Source: Streptomyces sp. WMMB303 (GTDB lineage: Bacteria; Actinomycetota; Actinomycetes; Streptomycetales; Streptomycetaceae). From it: 64,000 nt of DNA. This document shows, one piece after another, positions 51,160 to 58,540 of the stretch (position 1 is the stretch's first letter; every line of letters begins with the position of its first letter). The position numbers were made by a program, and so were the translations under genes. The stretch lies in contig NZ_JARKIN010000001.1 in NCBI RefSeq assembly GCF_029351045.1, forward strand, positions 310,001 through 374,000, read 5' to 3'. The notes beneath the pieces were generated by a model. It ran no database searches and was not told where the DNA came from. It saw nothing but the letters and a program-made list of their open reading frames with translations.

Positions 51160-51613
51160 CCGCCGGAGGGCAGGGCGCGGGCGACACCGCCGCACGGGGC
51201 GGAGAGCCTGCCTCACACGGGGTCGGGTCGATGCGGCAGACGCCGCGATACGGGTTCGCTTCTGCGGGTGGCTCCTGAAGCACTCCGGTCGGCCGCTGCC
51301 CGGCGCATCCGGCGCGCCACAGAAATCACCTGGCCGCCCCGAGGCATCACGGACCCCGGGCATCACGACCGCATCAGGTACGTGACGACCCGCGATCAAC
51401 GCGAGAGACTGTCCGGGATGAACGATACCGATCAGAGGTTCGACTGATACGTCCTCACGAGCCTCGTCAGCAACTCGGCGCCGGCCCCGGAAGTCCCCGC
51501 GGCGCCGGCGCCTCGAAGCGCCGGGACCAGGCCCCCCGGTTCCCCCACAACCCGCTGTCACCAGCAACGAAGCCCGCACAAGCGATAGCTGCCGATCTCG
51601 CGTGGAGGTACAC
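51160..51613. other. Upstream region of the dha operon
   Basis: 454 nt without a supported gene. The distal part (51340-51450) is less GC-rich and is the likely promoter area for dhaK. No operator was recognised. Confidence 0.45.
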
Positions 51614-52606
51614 ATGAGGATGCTCATCAACGTTCCCGAGTCCGTGGTTCCCGACGCGTTGCGCGGGATGGCCGCCGCCCACCCCGAGCTGGCCGTGGAC
51701 GTGGACCGTCGGGTGGTCGTGCGGCGGGACGCACCCGTGGCGGGGAAGGTCGCGCTGGTCTCCGGTGGCGGTTCGGGACACGAACCGCTGCACGGCGGAT
51801 TCGTGGGGCCCGGGATGCTGGATGCCGCATGCCCGGGCGAGATCTTCACCTCTCCCGTCCCCGACCAGATGGTCGCCGCGGCCGCGGCCGTGGACAGCGG
51901 GGAGGGCGTGCTGTTCGTCGTCAAGAACTACACCGGCGACGTGCTGAACTTCGACATGGCCGCCGAACTCGCCGAGGACGAAGGGGTCCGCATCGGGAAG
52001 GTACTGGTCGAGGACGACGTGGCGGTGACCGACAGTACGCACACGGCCGGACGCCGGGGTACGGGCGCCACGCTGTTCGTGGAGAAGATCGCGGGTGCGC
52101 TGGCCGCCGAGGGGGCGCCGCTGGAGCGGGTGGAGGCGGTCGCACGCCAGGTGGCCGACTCCTCGCGGAGCTTCGGAGTGGCACTCAGCCCGTGCAGCAC
52201 CCCGTCCAAGGGCGGTCCCATGTTCGAGCTGCCCGCAGGCGAACTGGAGCTGGGGATCGGCATCCACGGGGAACCGGGCCGGGAGCGGCGCCCGATGATG
52301 ACCTCCGGGGAGATCGCGGACTTCGCCGTCGACGCGGTGCTGGAGGATCTGCGCCCCGAGGAGCCGGTGCTCGCGCTGGTCAACGGCATGGGAGCGACGC
52401 CGCTGCTGGAACTCTACGGGTTCTGCGGCGAGGTGCACCGGGTCCTGGGCGAGCGGCGGATCCCGGTCGCCCGTACCCTCGTCGGCAACTATGTGACCTC
52501 GCTGGACATGGCGGGCGCCTCCGTGACGCTGTGCCGGGCCGACGAGGAGCTGCTGCGGCTGTGGGACGCGCCCGTGCAGACCGCCGGACTGCGGTGGGGC
52601 GCCTGA
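51614..52606 (+). CDS. dhaK: Dihydroxyacetone kinase subunit DhaK
   Basis: A 330-residue substrate-binding subunit of PTS-dependent dihydroxyacetone kinase. The substrate is held covalently by a His, here H218 in GIGIHGEPG; VSGGGSGHEPLHGGFVGPGML is the conserved N-terminal region. Acting with DhaL and DhaM it makes dihydroxyacetone phosphate. ATG 51614 follows GGAGG by 5 nt. It heads the dhaKLM operon. Confidence 0.94.
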   Translation: MRMLINVPESVVPDALRGMAAAHPELAVDVDRRVVVRRDAPVAGKVALVSGGGSGHEPLHGGFVGPGMLDAACPGEIFTSPVPDQMVAAAAAVDSGEGVLFVVKNYTGDVLNFDMAAELAEDEGVRIGKVLVEDDVAVTDSTHTAGRRGTGATLFVEKIAGALAAEGAPLERVEAVARQVADSSRSFGVALSPCSTPSKGGPMFELPAGELELGIGIHGEPGRERRPMMTSGEIADFAVDAVLEDLRPEEPVLALVNGMGATPLLELYGFCGEVHRVLGERRIPVARTLVGNYVTSLDMAGASVTLCRADEELLRLWDAPVQTAGLRWGA

Positions 52607-52767
52607 GGACCCACCGAACGGTGGCACGAGGGTGGCGGGACGGCCTCGCGACCGCGCAGCGGTGCGGCACGCACGACGGTGCCGCACGTCTCGCACGGCG
52701 GTGACGTACGCGGTGGTCCTGCCGGAGCGGGCAGCACCACGACCGGGACAGCGGTGAAGGAGCAGGA

Positions 52768-53487
52768 GTGAGCGGCAAGGTGACGAACGAGACCGGCGAG
52801 TCCGGCGGAGGCGGGACAGGCGTCCGGGAGCTGGACGCCGCCTTCTTCGCCCGGTGGATGACGGCTTCCGCCGACGCGGTGGCCCGGGAGGAGAGCCGGC
52901 TGACGGAACTGGATTCGGCGATCGGCGACGCCGACCACGGCGGAAACATGCGCCGGGGATTCGAGGCGGTGCGCGGGGAGCTGGCCGAGGACGTCCCCGC
53001 GACGCCGGGAGCCGTGCTGATGACGGCGGGCAGGAAGCTGGTCTCCACGGTGGGCGGTGCCTCGGGCCCGCTGTACGGAACACTGCTGCGCCGTACGGGC
53101 AAGGCGCTCGGCGGCGCGGAGCGCGTCAGCGGCGCGGAGCTGGCGGACGCGCTGCGCGCCGGTATCGACGCGGTGGCGCAATTGGGCGGTGCCGCCACGG
53201 GTGACAAGACGATGCTCGACGCGCTCCTCCCGGCCGCTGAGGCACTGGCGGACAGCGGCGGTGAGGACTTCGGCGCGGCGCGCGACGCGGCCGAGCGGGG
53301 TGCGGAGGAGACCGTGCCGCTCCAGGCCCGCAAGGGCCGGGCCAGCTATCTGGGAGAGCGCAGCATCGGGCACCGGGACCCCGGTGCGACCTCGGCGGCG
53401 CTGCTGGTGGCGGCGCTGGCGGAGGCCGGCGGCGCCGAAGGCGGGACGGCAGGGTCCCAGGAGAGCGACAGCGGTGGGGGTGAGTGA
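52768..53487 (+). CDS. dhaL: Dihydroxyacetone kinase ADP-binding subunit DhaL
   Basis: A 239-residue DhaL protein holding tightly bound ADP, which is rephosphorylated by DhaM. Metal-binding Asp residues are in DSAIGDADHGGNMRRGF; STVGGASGPLYGT and GDKTMLDAL are conserved. GTG 52768 has AGGAG upstream. There is a 161-nt gap after dhaK and a 1-nt gap before dhaM. N- and C-terminal Gly-rich tails are extra. Confidence 0.94.
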   Translation: MSGKVTNETGESGGGGTGVRELDAAFFARWMTASADAVAREESRLTELDSAIGDADHGGNMRRGFEAVRGELAEDVPATPGAVLMTAGRKLVSTVGGASGPLYGTLLRRTGKALGGAERVSGAELADALRAGIDAVAQLGGAATGDKTMLDALLPAAEALADSGGEDFGAARDAAERGAEETVPLQARKGRASYLGERSIGHRDPGATSAALLVAALAEAGGAEGGTAGSQESDSGGGE

Positions 53488-53488
53488 C

Positions 53489-53905
53489 ATGGCGGAGGCC
53501 GACGGCGGCAAGCGGGTAGGGATCGTCCTGGTCTCGCACAGCAAGGAGGTCGCCGACTCGGTCGCCCGGCTGGCCGCGGGGCTCGCGGGAGTGCCGGACG
53601 CCCGGGTCGCCGGTGCCGGCGGGCTGCCCGACGGCGGGCTCGGTACCAGCGAGGAACTGATCGTCGAGGCCGCGCACCGGATGGACGAGGGCGCGGGTGT
53701 CGCGCTCCTCGTCGACCTGGGCAGCGCGGTGCTGACGGTCAAGACGCTGCTGGCCGAGGGCGACGAGCTGCCGGAGCCGGCCCGGTTGGTGGACGCGCCC
53801 CTGGTGGAGGGTGCGGTCGCCGCCGTCGTGACGGCTGCGGGCGGCGGCGACCTGGCTGCGGTGGCCTCGGCTGCCGAGGAGGCCTACACCTACCGCAAGC
53901 TCTGA
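53489..53905 (+). CDS. dhaM: PTS phosphotransfer subunit DhaM, single-domain form
   Basis: A 138-residue EIIA-mannose-type protein; the phospho-acceptor His is in IVLVSHSKEVADSV. It passes phosphate from HPr to DhaL-ADP. Enterobacterial DhaM carries extra HPr and EI-like domains; this one has only the EIIA part, as in Gram-positive bacteria. ATG 53489 has a G-rich site upstream; GTG 53480 is possible. Its end overlaps the convergent HTH gene by 16 nt. Confidence 0.9.
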   Translation: MAEADGGKRVGIVLVSHSKEVADSVARLAAGLAGVPDARVAGAGGLPDGGLGTSEELIVEAAHRMDEGAGVALLVDLGSAVLTVKTLLAEGDELPEPARLVDAPLVEGAVAAVVTAAGGGDLAAVASAAEEAYTYRKL

Positions 53906-54450
53906 GTGGCAGTCAGATATGGGCGCGGCGGGCCGCTGTCCGCGTCCGTTCCGGACCCGGCTGCGGCCGGTGCCACCGGTCCCGCCGGTGGCACCGGCCT
54001 GGTCGGAGCCCCGGCCTCGGCCGGACCCCCGAGTGCGGCCGGGCCGGCTCTTCGGCGGAAGTCCCGTCCGTTTCCGGGCTCCGGTCCCGGTCCGGGGCCG
54101 CGGTCGAGACCGCGGCCGGGAAGCGGTTCGGCGCGCCGGTCCGGGTCGGCGGAGGCCGCGGCGTGCCGCCATCGGCTCTCGGCGGCACGCCGGGTAGCGA
54201 CCGCCGCCCGGGCGCGATGCGCGGTGGCGTCGGCCACCGCGCGGGCCGCTGTTCCGGCCAGCGCGTATCTCCCGTAGCCGGTGCGGTGCACCAGACCGTG
54301 CTCCGCGGCCTGCGCGAGAAGCTTGTTCGCCTGGGAGGCGCTGAGACCGGCGCGCCGGGCTATCACCCCCAGCCGGAGCGGCGAGCCGGGGTTCTCCCGC
54401 TCCAGCGCCGTCATGGCCGCCAGTAACGCGAACCCGGTGGCGGCGCTCAC
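53890..54450 (-). CDS. Winged-helix regulator with a TTA codon
   Basis: A 186-residue protein. Residues about 5-75 form an IclR/MarR-like winged helix (SPLRLGVIARRAGLSASQANKLLAQAAEHGLVHRT, residues 22-57). The remainder is Arg/Ala/Pro-rich and disordered. Leu9 is encoded by TTA (minus-strand 54426-54424), so synthesis should need bldA tRNA. It diverges from the MRYIY/P450 locus across 556 nt and is the only regulator near it. GTG 54450 lacks a clear ribosome-binding site, so the start is uncertain. Confidence 0.72.
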   Translation of the reverse strand: MSAATGFALLAAMTALERENPGSPLRLGVIARRAGLSASQANKLLAQAAEHGLVHRTGYGRYALAGTAARAVADATAHRARAAVATRRAAESRWRHAAASADPDRRAEPLPGRGLDRGPGPGPEPGNGRDFRRRAGPAALGGPAEAGAPTRPVPPAGPVAPAAAGSGTDADSGPPRPYLTATQSLR

Positions 54451-54508
54451 CGGGCGCGCCCGGAACGAAGAGTGCTCCGGTACCGGGTACCGGCGCGGTA
54501 CCGCGCCG
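54450..54508. promoter_or_regulatory. Three stacked palindromes at the HTH gene start
   Basis: CCGGGCGCGCCCGG (54450-54463), CCGGTACCGGGTACCGG (54477-54493) and CGGCGCGGTACCGCGCCG (54491-54508). The last is a perfect 18-bp palindrome. They cover the 5' end and upstream region of the regulator gene and may be its own binding sites. Confidence 0.6.
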
Positions 54509-55006
54509 GGAAGCAGGTCGACGATTTCATCATTGGTTTACACCTTCGAAGTCGTTTGATTCGCCGGATTCTGCACGGCCGGAAACTCCCACCGCCCGCC
54601 GTCTTTCCGGATGCCCCGCTCGGGTCGTCCGCATTCGCGGGCCCGCCGCGGAACGTGGCATACCGCACCGGAATGTGACGCCCACTTTTCCGCCGGTGGA
54701 AAAGTAGCCGTTCCCAACCCGCCACCCTCTTGCGCTGGGCGCACCGGCTGTCGGAAGGTGACCACGGCCGACTTCAGGCCCTCCGGAGCGCGACAGGGAA
54801 GGTGGGACGTGGGTATTCCTTTCGCATCCATGACACCGGCCCGCCCCTCGCGTTCGATTTACAGGAGGGCAACCCTCCGTATCCGCCGTCGGGGCGACCG
54901 TCCGACCGCCCTTTCCGAGGCCGGATTTCACACCGGCCGCACCCCAAGATCGCCGTCGGCACGCTGTGACGGCGGACCCCGGGAACCACACAGAAGGGAG
55001 AACGCC
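54509..55006. promoter_or_regulatory. Upstream region of the MRYIY gene
   Basis: About 500 nt with mixed GC content. It includes an AT-rich island (54520-54570), a perfect inverted repeat ACTTTTCC-6-GGAAAAGT (54684-54705), and a GGAGGG-3-CCCTCC hairpin (54864-54878). The frames here lack coding bias. The promoter for the RiPP locus should lie here. Confidence 0.55.
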
Positions 55007-55024
55007 ATGCGTTACATCTACTGA
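55007..55024 (+). CDS. Pentapeptide RiPP precursor MRYIY (biarylitide BytA-like)
   Basis: ATG CGT TAC ATC TAC TGA encodes Met-Arg-Tyr-Ile-Tyr. GAAGGGAG ends 6 nt before the ATG, an excellent ribosome-binding site. A P450 gene begins 98 nt downstream. Known biarylitide loci have exactly this design: an 18-bp gene for MRYxH followed by one P450 that cross-links the first Tyr to the last aromatic residue. Here the last residue is Tyr instead of His, and the Tyr-Ile-Tyr core equals the first three residues of cittilin (YIYY). A Tyr3-Tyr5 biaryl or aryl-ether link is therefore expected. That the pentapeptide is the true precursor is inferred from ribosome-binding site, sequence and context. Confidence 0.85.
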   Translation: MRYIY

Positions 55025-55038
55025 TGAGTTCACGGTTG

Positions 55039-55087
55039 TCGCGGCCACGCGTATTGCCGCGTGGCCGCGAACGGTGCGATCTTTTTT
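55039..55087 (+). promoter_or_regulatory. Hairpin plus T6 between the pentapeptide and P450 genes
   Basis: A perfect 13-bp stem (55039-55051 with 55058-55070, loop TATTGC) is followed 11 nt later by TTTTTT (55082-55087). T6 is rare in such GC-rich DNA. It probably attenuates or processes the transcript so that more precursor than P450 is made. Confidence 0.65.
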
Positions 55088-55122
55088 CCCTCACCCCACC
55101 CGGATCCGAAGAAAGGACGGCC

Positions 55123-56322
55123 ATGACGGGAGCGGCGGCGCAAACACGGCGGGATCCCCTCTACGACCCCCTGGCTCCTGAGGTCATCGCCGCTCCGCAC
55201 GCGGCCTACCGGCGGCTGCGCGAACACCGCAGGGTGTACTGGCACGCGCAGCTCGACTCCTGGGTGCTCACCGGATACGCCGAGTGCCGCAAAGTGCTCG
55301 GGGACACGGCCGCCTTCGGCTCCGACTTCCGCAGGGCGGGCGAGGAGGTTCCCGAAGCCCAGCTGAGCGTGCAGTCGCTGGACCAGCCCGAGCACTCCGC
55401 GATCCGCCACCTGCTCGTCTCCGCACTGCACGTGCGCTCGCACACGGCCATGACGGATACCGCGGCGCGGCTGGCCGCCGGGCGCCTGGACGCGCTGCGC
55501 GGCGCCGGCCCCGTCGACCTGGTCAGCGGATTCGCCCGCCCGCTCGCACTGCACACGATGTGCGACTTCCTGGGCGTCACACCGCCCGACGGCCCCTGGT
55601 TCGAGGAGATGTCCAACGCGATCGTGCGCGGCATGGACGCGGGGCTGGACCCCTCGCGTGCCGAACCGGGCATCCGTGCCAGGGAGGAGCTGAGCCGAAT
55701 GGTGGGCGGGTGGCTGGAGACCGCCGGTGAGGACGGCTTCCTCGGTGCCGCCCGCGCCGCCCGCGCACAGGCCCCGGAGGTCTCCGATGCGGTGTTGGCC
55801 AACTCGCTGCGGGGAGTGCTGCACGCGGGGTACGAGTCGGTCAGCCGACTGATGGGCAACGCACTCGCCCGGCTGGTGGACGACCCCGCGCTGCTCGGAC
55901 GCGCCATGGCGCAGAACGCGCTGGATCCGCTGGTGGACGAGCTGCTCCGGCTCGACGGGCCGGTGCAGGGCGACGCGCGGGTGTGCGTGGCCGACAGCGA
56001 ACTGGGCGGCCGGCGGATCCGGCGCGGCGAGATCGTCGTTCTGCTGCTGGGCGCGGCCGACCGGGATCCGGAGGTCTTCACCGATCCGGACGCCGTGGAC
56101 CTGACCCGGCGCAAGGGAGCGCATCTGGCGTTCGGCCGGGGCGCGCACGCCTGTCTGGGTGCGGGGCTGGCCACCCTGCAGTTGCGTGCGGTGCTCTCGG
56201 CACTGCACACGGCCGGGATCGGCTTCCGTCCCCAGGGGCCCGCAGAGTACGAACGCACCGCGACACTGCGCGGATTGCGCGCGCTGCCGGTCGTGGTGAG
56301 CGAAGCCGCTGTCGCCCGCTGA
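55123..56322 (+). CDS. Cytochrome P450, candidate peptide cross-linking enzyme (BytO-like)
   Basis: A 399-residue soluble bacterial P450. The heme ligand is C344 in FGRGAHACLG, the K-helix ExxR is E273-x-x-R276, and the I-helix reads HAGYESVS with Glu238-Ser239 in place of the usual acid-Thr pair. It lies behind the MRYIY gene as in biarylitide clusters, so it should couple the two Tyr side chains of the pentapeptide using ferredoxin-supplied electrons. No ferredoxin gene is near. ATG 55123 has AAAGGAC upstream; the in-frame extension to 55024 is non-coding leader containing the hairpin. Confidence 0.88.
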   Translation: MTGAAAQTRRDPLYDPLAPEVIAAPHAAYRRLREHRRVYWHAQLDSWVLTGYAECRKVLGDTAAFGSDFRRAGEEVPEAQLSVQSLDQPEHSAIRHLLVSALHVRSHTAMTDTAARLAAGRLDALRGAGPVDLVSGFARPLALHTMCDFLGVTPPDGPWFEEMSNAIVRGMDAGLDPSRAEPGIRAREELSRMVGGWLETAGEDGFLGAARAARAQAPEVSDAVLANSLRGVLHAGYESVSRLMGNALARLVDDPALLGRAMAQNALDPLVDELLRLDGPVQGDARVCVADSELGGRRIRRGEIVVLLLGAADRDPEVFTDPDAVDLTRRKGAHLAFGRGAHACLGAGLATLQLRAVLSALHTAGIGFRPQGPAEYERTATLRGLRALPVVVSEAAVAR

Positions 56323-56388
56323 ACGCCGGGCCGCAGCTCCGTCCCGGCTCCGCGGAACACCCCCGACCACCGTGCGAAGGGAGAGCCC

Positions 56389-57921
56389 GTGCCCGTCTTC
56401 GACCGTCCGCTCCGCCACACCCTGAGACTCGCCGCCGCGGCGGCGCTGTCGCTGGCCTGCCTGTCGGCGCAGCAGGTCGGTGCCGCGCCACTGCCCTCCT
56501 CCGCACCGGCCGGGACCGCCGCAACCGACCGGGCCGACCGGGCCGATGGGGCCGATGGGGCCGATGGGGCCACGCTCTCCCCCGAGCAACTGGCCGAGCG
56601 GGTGCGGGGCCGGGACGTGACCCGCCATCTGCGGGCCTTCCAGCGGATCGCCGATGCCAGCGGCGGCAACCGGGGCTACAACCAGCCCGGATTCACCCGC
56701 TCGGTACGGTACGTGGCCGGAAAGCTGGCGGCGGCCGGATACCAGGTCGAGCGGCAGCGGGTGCCCTATACCGACTTCGCCATCGCCGAGGAGCGGCTCT
56801 CGGTGCGGACGAGGAGCGGCGCCGGCCGGCATGTGCCCGTCCTGATGACCCGCTTCACTCCCTCTACCTCCGCGGCCGGTCTCGACGCACGAGTGGTCGC
56901 GCCGCCCCGCGGGAAGACAGGCTGCGCGGTGTCCGACTACGACGGCGTGGCCGCGCGCGGGGCGGTCGTCGTGCTGGCCCGCGACGCCTGCGGATTCGGA
57001 CATCAACAGCAGGTGGCCGCGCAGGTGGGCGCGCGGGCGGTGGTGATGTACTACCCGACACCGTCGCCCCGGAACAACTACCGCCTGATAGGCCTCCCCC
57101 GGGGGAGCTTCGTGCTCCCCATGGGGATGGTCTCCCAGGCCGACGGCGAACGGCTGGTACGGCAGGCCGCCTCACGTGCGGGCGCCCGGGTGCATCTGAC
57201 GCTGCGCGGCCACGACGTCCGGCGCACCACGGTGAACCTCATCGCCGAGACCAGGGGCGGCGACCCGGACGACGTGGTGGTGATGGGCGGCCACCTCGAC
57301 AGCGTGCCGGAGGCGCCGGGCGTCGACGACAACGGTTCCACCGCCGCCACCGTGCTGCAGACGGCGCTGGAGCTGGCACCGCACCAGGACCGGGTGCGCA
57401 ACAAGGTGCGGTTCATGTGGTGGGGCGCCGAGGAGCTCATCGACGTCGGCTCCGGCTACTACGTCGACCACCTCTCGCCCGCCGAGCGCGGCAGGATCGC
57501 CGCCGTCCTGAACGCGGAGCTGCTCGCCCCGTCCAACTACGGCCGCTTCGTGTGGGATCCGGGAACCGGCGGCAGCCACCGGATCGCCGAGCTGTTCGCC
57601 GGGTACTTCGAGCGGCACGGACTGCCCTACGAGCGGCAGGACCCGGGCGCGATCGGCTCCGACCACCTGGTGTTCCAGGCAGCGGGCATCCCGGTCGGCG
57701 GGCTGGACGGGGGCAACCTGCAGGTGAAGACCCCCGAGCAGCAGGCCCGCTTCGGCGGCACGGCCGGGCAGATGTTCGACCCCTGTTATCACCAGCCGTG
57801 CGACCGGCTGAAGGCCATCGACCGGACGGCGCTGGACACCAACGCCCGCGCGCTGGCCTGGGTCCTGGGCGAACTGGCGCTGAAGGACGGTGCCGTACGC
57901 GGGATTCGGGCCGCCGGGTAG
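56389..57921 (+). CDS. Secreted M28-family zinc metallopeptidase
   Basis: A 510-residue exported aminopeptidase-like enzyme. A Sec signal (about residues 1-32) precedes a DRA/DGA repeat linker, a PA-like insert (about 170-260) and an M28 catalytic domain. Its zinc ligands are visible as H302 in GGHLDSV, the Asp in GVDDNGS, the Glu pair in WWGAEE and the His in GSDHLVF. GTG 56389 has GAAGGGAG upstream, matching the ribosome-binding site of the pentapeptide gene. It follows the P450 by 66 nt in the same direction and may trim Met-Arg from the cross-linked peptide after export (inference). It could instead be an unrelated secreted peptidase. Confidence 0.9.
   Translation: MPVFDRPLRHTLRLAAAAALSLACLSAQQVGAAPLPSSAPAGTAATDRADRADGADGADGATLSPEQLAERVRGRDVTRHLRAFQRIADASGGNRGYNQPGFTRSVRYVAGKLAAAGYQVERQRVPYTDFAIAEERLSVRTRSGAGRHVPVLMTRFTPSTSAAGLDARVVAPPRGKTGCAVSDYDGVAARGAVVVLARDACGFGHQQQVAAQVGARAVVMYYPTPSPRNNYRLIGLPRGSFVLPMGMVSQADGERLVRQAASRAGARVHLTLRGHDVRRTTVNLIAETRGGDPDDVVVMGGHLDSVPEAPGVDDNGSTAATVLQTALELAPHQDRVRNKVRFMWWGAEELIDVGSGYYVDHLSPAERGRIAAVLNAELLAPSNYGRFVWDPGTGGSHRIAELFAGYFERHGLPYERQDPGAIGSDHLVFQAAGIPVGGLDGGNLQVKTPEQQARFGGTAGQMFDPCYHQPCDRLKAIDRTALDTNARALAWVLGELALKDGAVRGIRAAG
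56527..56571. repeat. Five tandem 9-bp repeats in the M28 gene
   Basis: GACCGGGCC twice then GATGGGGCC three times, encoding Asp-Arg-Ala and Asp-Gly-Ala triplets between the signal peptide and the mature domain. Copy number may vary between strains without changing the frame. Confidence 0.85.
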
Positions 57922-57978
57922 CCCGGCGACCACCTGCGGCCGGGCCCGGCGACTGCCGGCCCGGCCGCCGCCCCGTCG

Positions 57979-58476
57979 TCAGCCGGCCGCCTCGGGGGAG
58001 GCCGTGAACGAGGCCGGGCCCTCCTGGGAAGCCTGCTTGATGCGGAAGTGCGCGTACTCCTTCATCGGCGGCAGCTCGTCGAGGCCGAACCAGCCGACCT
58101 CCAGCGACTCCTCGTCGTTGACCCGTACGGCGCTCGCCGCCCGCGCGGTGGCCCGGCAGCGGAAGACGATGTCCATGAACTGGCAGATGTCCCCGTTGGG
58201 GTAGGTGACGGGCTTCTCCAGCGCGTACACCCCGACCAGGCGCTCCGCCACACACCGGACGTTGGTCTCCTCCCGCACCTCGCGCACCGCGCAGTCGGCC
58301 GGCTGCTCGCCGGGCTCCGGGATGCCGCCGATCACCGCCCACCGGCCGGTGTCGGCACGCCGTCCCAGGAGCACCCGCCCCCGGTCGTCGAAGACGATGA
58401 CGCTGACGCCGGGCAGGTGGAGGAGCTGGTGGCCGGCGGAGCGCCGCAGATCGCGGATGTAGTCGGGAGTCGCCAT
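57979..58476 (-). CDS. Nudix hydrolase
   Basis: A 165-residue Nudix protein. The Nudix box is GGIPEPGEQPADCAVREVREET, with GX5EX7REUXEE intact at about residues 50-71. Substrate class (nucleoside diphosphate derivative) cannot be told; the VFDDRGRVLLGRRADTGRW start is common in ADP-ribose or mutT-like branches. It is convergent with the M28 gene. Confidence 0.9.
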   Translation of the reverse strand: MATPDYIRDLRRSAGHQLLHLPGVSVIVFDDRGRVLLGRRADTGRWAVIGGIPEPGEQPADCAVREVREETNVRCVAERLVGVYALEKPVTYPNGDICQFMDIVFRCRATARAASAVRVNDEESLEVGWFGLDELPPMKEYAHFRIKQASQEGPASFTASPEAAG

Positions 58477-58540
58477 GTTCCGACCCTAAGCCGGGCCGGG
58501 TCCGCGCGCCGAGCGAGGCGGGCGCGGGCGGCCCGCGGAG

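Follow-up and report, generated by a model that had tools for sequence, protein, structure and literature searches.

We found that the window, the whole 64,000-nucleotide stretch of DNA from Streptomyces sp. WMMB303 that was analysed, contains what its sequence shows to be a locus for biarylitides, an already known family of RiPPs; the assignment is based on a P450Blt-like cytochrome P450 and on the presence of an 18-bp gene before the P450 in 9/9 close loci. The locus is probably an operon in which a minute gene encodes the pentapeptide MRYIY, the P450 links Tyr3 to Tyr5, and an M28 aminopeptidase is predicted to remove Met1 and Arg2, leaving a cyclic Tyr-Ile-Tyr (Table 1). At its centre, the original prediction was supported: the locus is of the biarylitide RiPP type, and its P450 is expected to couple Tyr3 with Tyr5. 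The replacement of His5 by Tyr5 within a lineage of P450Blt type, together with the linked M28 class, makes the locus worth testing as a variant.

Table 1. Features of the biarylitide locus and its surroundings in the window.
Feature	Position	Strand	Basis
Small HTH protein encoded divergently; may be a regulator, membership uncertain	53890..54450	-	Weak, below-cutoff HTH_IclR/MarR_2 matches
Ribosome-binding site GAAGGGAG of precursor gene	54993..55000	+	Sequence; 6 nt upstream of start
bytA-type precursor gene for MRYIY, 18 bp	55007..55024	+	Sequence; sole genome match of its pattern; relatives' counterparts
Inverted repeat between precursor and P450, 13-pair stem, 6-nt loop; predicted RNA hairpin	55039..55070	+	Stem search, folding
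AAAGGA, likely ribosome-binding site of P450	55112..55117	+	Sequence
Cytochrome P450, 399 aa, biarylitide cross-linker family	55123..56322	+	P450Blt 64% identical; PDB 8u2m E 2.7e-152; Pfam PF00067
Codon of Gly231, I-helix (Ala in MRYIH relatives)	55813..55815	+	Alignment
Codon of haem-ligand Cys344	56152..56154	+	Sequence; invariant in 40 proteins
GAAGGGAG, likely ribosome-binding site of peptidase	56376..56383	+	Sequence
M28 aminopeptidase (510 aa, GTG start) that includes a PA domain	56389..57921	+	Pfam PF04389, PF02225; beside P450 in 7/9 loci

The precursor gene reads ATG CGT TAC ATC TAC TGA and encodes a five-residue peptide whose third and fifth residues are aromatic; a passage of PMC13417212 defines biarylitide precursors as MxYxY/H. 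The sequence confirmed the five-codon gene and the motif 6 nt upstream of it as originally predicted, its 18 bp do lie below the size that gene callers accept, and the masses proposed for the product (456.213, and 498.223 if N-acetylated) agreed with our recalculation. In 7 aligned loci, the precursor ribosome-binding site was either GAAGGGAG or GAAAGGAG. The pattern ATG-(Arg/Ser)-Tyr-x-Tyr-(TAA/TGA) had one match in the 7.1 Mb genome, namely this locus, and both a reversed control of this pattern and its Tyr-x-His counterpart gave 0 matches in the same 7.1 Mb. The single match, the empty reversed control and the 18-bp gene in 9/9 close loci place the MRYIY gene beyond chance. A 137-codon open reading frame that ends in the same MRYIY was rejected as a gene because its frame is not conserved: upstream it stays open over 149 codons in the window but over just 13 to 90 in seven relatives.

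An 18-bp gene for M-x-Tyr-x-His/Tyr was present shortly upstream of the P450 in 9/9 distinct loci with P450 identities of at least 61%. The peptides were MRYIY in the window, MRYIH in S. qinglanensis (L002), Streptomyces sp. AA1529 (L003) and G911 (L102), MRYVH in S. albus (L004), S. diacarni (L005) and G1065 (L107), MRYFY in G983 (L101), and MSYRH in G877 (L103); L083 and L104, which repeat L003, and L084, an apparent repeat of L004, were left out of this count. P450 homologues that lack an upstream pentapeptide had been named in advance as the finding that would speak against the locus, and all nine close homologues proved to have one. The precursor was closely coupled to the P450 gene in all nine, with 116 nt from start to start in the window and precursor-to-P450 offsets of 116, 139, 111, 117, 124, 138 and 138 in 7 relatives. 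In distant P450 homologues (40-48% identical), the precursor lay after the P450 or none was found. In particular, L085-L088, L090-L092 and L094 (P450 45-48% identical) carried an 18-bp MKYWH gene 3' of the P450, and no precursor was seen within the stretch available for L089 or on the scanned upstream side of L093, L095 and L096; L097 had MRYLH 1.3 kb upstream of its P450. A further scan, which covered L006-L011 and L039 (P450 32-37% identical) and left out the remainder of L012-L081, found no precursor in the 600 nt upstream.

The P450 belongs to the BytO/P450Blt family, being 64% identical to P450Blt and grouping with it in a tree of its own homologues. The predicted intact heme motif was found as FGRGAHACLG, and its C344 did not vary among 40 aligned proteins; Gln84 and, in the I-helix, His234, Glu238 and Ser239 were retained. 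The frame is open as far as 56322, and its start is likely ATG 55123; a start at 55024 was rejected, since the intervening frame is conserved in L003 alone of the 7 relatives measured. Passages of PMC12186263 give the RufO contact positions as Phe69, Met172, Arg188, Arg231, His235 and Glu239, which would correspond to F69, M171, R187, R230, H234 and E238 in the window, with a shift by one that was inferred and not taken from a RufO alignment. A search of the plasmid collection returned no match at E 1e-60.

Between the precursor stop and the P450, each of the 8 loci measured, L107 not among them, had an uninterrupted stem of 12-16 pairs, with G-U counted as a pair; the stem begins 11-31 nt past the stop. 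As background, 3.1% of 3926 100-nt stretches from the same loci, hairpins included, reached 12 pairs. The folding z-scores of the gap ranged from -2.4 to -5.6 in the 8 loci, and shuffled sequences folded as well in 2 of 200 cases in L002 and 5 of 200 in L103. In L102 and L103 the stem has another sequence than in the other loci, so it is the pairing that is conserved. An intrinsic terminator between the two genes was considered and rejected, as a consensus scan of 54500-58500 found none; a T-run starts about 11 nt past the hairpin. The hairpin is not a new feature, since a predicted structure of the precursor-P450 gap, beside a terminator hairpin, is presented for myxarylin in a passage of PMC8708641. 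We also observed a stem of 11-14 pairs after the precursor stop in the 7 MKYWH loci folded, one of them L105 (the same genome stretch as L085); it extends to the limit of the 100 nt analysed 3' of that stop.

The tyrosine at the last position had been put forward as new, and this part of the original prediction did not hold. Passages of PMC13417212, which describes 277 biarylitide clusters, report the precursors MRYWY and MRYAY with their P450s, AciB and SlyP, each of which forms a single Tyr3-Tyr5 C-C link; Tyr5 was thus already known, and the existence of a Tyr-Tyr biarylitide is not news. MRYIY itself was not met in the text of the literature searched, Table S1 of PMC13417212 with its 277 clusters lying outside that search. 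The expectation that MRYxY would be conserved among P450 homologues also failed, as 7/9 loci carry His5. Tyr5 is thus unusual within the group, the 7 other loci besides the window and G983 all being His5. Among relatives with readable loci, the nearest (P450 91% identical) have MRYIH, from which the window differs by one C-to-T change, CAC to TAC, in codon 5. By this comparison, Tyr5 in the window is derived from His5, although a lone C-to-T change could reflect either an error in sequencing or a recent neutral mutation. MRYFY in G983 is a second, separate case. In a P450 tree (n=23), the window paired with NPDC006784 (98/96), and the two fell within a five-member group (100/99) that includes the MRYIH species; G983, 8N114 and CA-250714 made up a group of their own (100/99). 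Given the precursors that are known, two gains of Tyr5 would be the simplest account. The MRYIH, MRYIY and MRYFY set, with P450s 77-94% identical to that of the window, therefore offers a natural experiment on the choice of the P450 between Tyr-His and Tyr-Tyr.

Passages of PMC10929621 name A231, H234 and E238 as the three I-helix positions key to P450Blt specificity. At residue 231, the window has Gly and G983 has Ser; six His5 loci carry Ala there and L107 carries Thr. His234 and Glu238 were conserved in both Tyr5 loci. Gly or Ser at 231 occurred in 2/2 Tyr5 loci versus 0/7 His5 loci (Fisher 0.028), a comparison of 2 with 7 loci for a pattern that was noticed before being tested. The change from Ala231 to Gly may make room for the second tyrosine. 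A rule by which any residue other than Ala at 231 implies Tyr5 was rejected on account of L107, which combines Thr231 with MRYVH. Window-only P450 changes near the contact residues (6/15, p 0.02) were not used, as the distance was chosen afterwards. Gly or Ser at 231 was also observed in the P450s P0004, P0007, P0037 and P0038, the precursors of which are predicted to be MRYxY. By strain, Gly231 was seen in 8N114, NPDC059740 and NPDC006925 and Ser231 in CA-250714; NPDC006784, the nearest relative, has Ala231 and is predicted to encode MRYxH.

The locus had been described as minimal, which was not borne out: the next gene, 66 nt 3' of the P450, encodes an M28 aminopeptidase whose domain exceeds the curated cut-off (PF04389, 135 bits versus 21.3). 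This gene directly follows the P450 in 7/9 loci (window, L002, L003, L004, L005, L102 and L103). Larger stretches around L102 and L103 (L110 and L111) contained no homologue of the dha, Nudix, racemase and glycosyltransferase neighbours, so inherited wider gene order does not explain the pairing. No M28 gene was found beside the P450 in L109 (around the G983 locus) or L108 (around the G1065 locus); the enzyme is thus not required everywhere, G983 being the other Tyr5 strain. The best M28 protein of G983 was 42% identical and encoded on another contig, and G1065 had none at E 1e-40. In G983, the Nudix gene directly follows the P450 without an intervening M28 gene (L109, 10291-10426), with the dha genes still upstream and the neighbourhood otherwise similar. 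Among 81 genomes of the genus, including that of the window, 43 had an M28 match at E 1e-60 or better, and those other than the gene of the window were at most 44% identical.

Linkage was compared using two protein searches, with the best 120 of 299 P450 matches and the best 120 of 280 M28 matches. After P0028, P0059, P0060, P0083 and P0117-P0120 had been left out (no contig size, fragments, or remote), 112 P450s were set against 120 M28 proteins, and at least 25 contigs of exactly equal size in bases were shared among the matches listed. Equal contig size served here as a proxy for the same contig, with the DNA-level check confined to the named loci. Small contigs of 2,944, 5,372, 6,526, 6,974, 8,054 and 8,646 bases were included, and Streptomyces, Micromonospora, Amycolatopsis and Cryptosporangium were among the names. 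Among the matches listed, 22/57 P450s at least 55% identical had an M28 protein on an equal-sized contig; conversely, a P450 accompanied 23/46 M28 proteins at 54% identity or more, 2/35 at 44-53% and 0/39 below. These counts are likely lower bounds, because each cluster lists only its longest contig.

The M28 proteins linked to the byt genes, at least 54% identical to that of the window, formed a class set apart from the S. griseus aminopeptidase and keratinase KP1 (M28; PDB 1cp7 and 8ac9). By sequence they share the fold family and the aligned His, Asp, Glu and His as usual, and the window has NAEL where the two enzymes have NFDM. The protein has Glu where most others carry Asp, at a position that we take to be a zinc-binding residue. 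Among the matches listed, Glu was found at this site in 46/46 proteins at least 54% identical, and Asp in 32/39 remote ones; likewise, Gly or Ala in 45/46 faced Phe in 27/39, and His of the SDH motif in 46/46 faced Tyr in 32/39. Judged by eye, the N-terminus of the M28 protein looks like a secretion signal. In the tier 44-53% identical (P0167-P0198, several from Actinomadura), Glu was present in 35/35 and the SDH His in 27/35 among the matches listed. The two pairs of this tier on equal-sized contigs were P0097/P0174 and P0109/P0192, with P450s about 44% identical. Other P450-peptide systems may use this M28 class.

In the predicted order of events, the 18-base gene would be translated first, and the hairpin after it could keep precursor transcript more abundant than that of the P450 or protect the short message. 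In the next step, the whole pentapeptide would be bound by the P450, which would form an aryl ether from a Tyr3 carbon to the Tyr5 oxygen (OF4949-type), a mixture, or a C-C bond, the first two together being slightly favoured. Finally, the M28 aminopeptidase would trim stepwise and stop at the ring-tied tyrosine. We propose it as a candidate leader peptidase for Met1 and Arg2 because it is kept by the P450 in several neighbourhoods and because RufB, an aminopeptidase, acts on a pentapeptide in rufomycin biosynthesis according to passages of PMC12186263. The step of the pathway at which a peptidase frees the tripeptide becomes testable through this distinct M28 class, found after the P450 in several actinobacterial genera. 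A bolder proposal is that the His5-to-Tyr5 and Ala231Gly changes converted a Tyr-His biarylitide into a natural bacterial counterpart, of ribosomal origin, of the peptidase inhibitors OF4949 and K-13, with an aryl ether in Tyr-Ile-Tyr formed by a His234-type P450 and with the byt-travelling M28 enzyme as a dedicated leader peptidase. This is doubtful as a whole; if true, the M28 enzyme would supply the leader peptidase that characterised biarylitide clusters were said to lack. In cyclic isodityrosines of the OF4949/K-13 type, an aryl ether joins two tyrosines that lie one residue apart; the window has a Tyr-Ile-Tyr core. The same core had been likened to the start of YIYY, the precursor core of cittilin, which has its own cittilin P450.

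The chemistry is best weighed against P450Blt, the nearest characterised relative. According to passages of PMC10929621, its native substrate is MRYLH, the wild type cross-links MRYLY with 29% conversion to 65% Tyr3-carbon to Tyr5-oxygen ether and 35% C-C product, the H234L-E238N mutant gives more than 90% ether at 85% conversion, and A231V-H234L forms all three links. We lean slightly to an ether or a mixture in the window because P450Blt makes mostly ether from MRYLY, and a C-C link is nearly as likely. The same operon with a P450 that makes only the Tyr3-Tyr5 C-C biaryl, like AciB and SlyP, is accordingly a close contender that falls somewhat short of an even chance: the passages of PMC13417212 report C-C coupling for both native Tyr-x-Tyr enzymes that have been characterised, and part of the wild-type P450Blt product is C-C, whereas the predominance of ether in that product argues the other way. 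The window P450 also keeps His234, where passages of PMC12951456 place Leu in SlyP and Val in the YYH and YFH C-C enzymes. His234 is said in PMC10929621 to hinder Tyr-x-Tyr binding in P450Blt; its retention is by itself no argument for an ether, since the mutant without it yields more ether, and this weakens the aryl-ether reading of the OF4949/K-13 type. It is very improbable that the P450 instead nitrates Tyr3 like RufO, the peptide being a mere source of nitrotyrosine. Passages of PMC12186263 do describe the same kind of 18-bp pentapeptide gene for RufO and the release of nitrotyrosine by RufB; however, RufO is only 41.6% identical to P450Blt, as opposed to 64% for the window P450, and a Pfam scan of the 11 ORFs between 50434 and 61379 found no nitric oxide synthase domain.

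It is rather unlikely, in our estimation, that the M28 protein is not the leader peptidase and instead serves as a protected target or in self-protection, or is the product of a passenger gene. Passages of PMC13192836 state that OF4949 inhibits aminopeptidase B and K-13 inhibits ACE, so a cyclic Tyr-x-Tyr could be an inhibitor and the adjoining aminopeptidase its target; absence from 2/9 loci and the non-canonical Glu at a conserved site point the same way, and the predicted secretion, set against a cytoplasmic P450, counts against leader removal. No exporter was identified. A target of the Tyr-Tyr product is harder to reconcile with the M28 gene at His5 loci, where it does not follow that product, and a passenger with its persistence beside the P450 across different neighbourhoods. 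Biarylitide and M28 were not met together in the literature searched; where biarylitide papers mention an aminopeptidase, the passages concern RufB (PMC12186263) and OF4949 (PMC13192836), and none was seen in the parts of PMC10929621 consulted. More improbable is that Tyr5 arose recently, or through an erroneous base call, in what is a Tyr-His system, with a P450 that handles the Tyr peptide poorly and a locus losing function. The single C-to-T change and the His5 of all 7 other loci, including the two nearest with readable loci, fit such decay, as do the P450 changes, 15 found only in the window versus 5 only in its sister (p 0.04), some of which hit positions that 39 homologues otherwise keep unchanged (Pro88 to Gln). 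That excess was not used as a sign of P450 acceleration after the Tyr5 switch, because neighbouring genes (60168 and 58541) show a similar one. Intact P450 and peptidase genes, silent over replacement changes on the window P450 branch (25 to 17), and a second Tyr5 locus in G983, also with a small non-Ala residue at 231, speak against such decay.

Compared with named systems, the locus most resembles that of P450Blt from Micromonospora sp. MW-13 (MRYLH; PDB 8U2M) in its 18-bp precursor type, P450 sequence and His234, Glu238, Ser239 and Gln84, and differs in Tyr instead of His at position 5 and Gly instead of Ala at 231. SlyP (MRYAY) and AciB (MRYWY) share Tyr3 and Tyr5 in a five-residue precursor and the expected Tyr-Tyr link; the passages of PMC13417212 describe no M28 gene for either, and in the MRYWY clade the precursor lies far from the P450, about 1,400 bp in S. 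nassauensis. Myxarylin shares the pentapeptide gene and the hairpin in the gap before the P450 (passages of PMC12951456 and PMC8708641), and its leader is removed after cross-linking, as proposed for the window. In contrast, those passages give it a Tyr-His C-N link and an N-methyltransferase and describe no M28 gene; a prolyl oligopeptidase removes the leader in vitro, is the likely enzyme of the pathway, and adjoins several biarylitide-like clusters. The rufomycin RufO/RufB system resembles the window in having a pentapeptide gene, a P450 and an aminopeptidase, and differs in nitration with a nitric oxide synthase (passages of PMC12186263).

Homologues of the small HTH protein were found upstream of the precursor in 6/8 stretches (L002, L003, L004, L005, L109 and L111) and not in L108 or L110. 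Further upstream of the biarylitide locus, the forward strand (51602-53905) carries dhaK and dhaL, which encode dihydroxyacetone kinase, followed by another reading frame.
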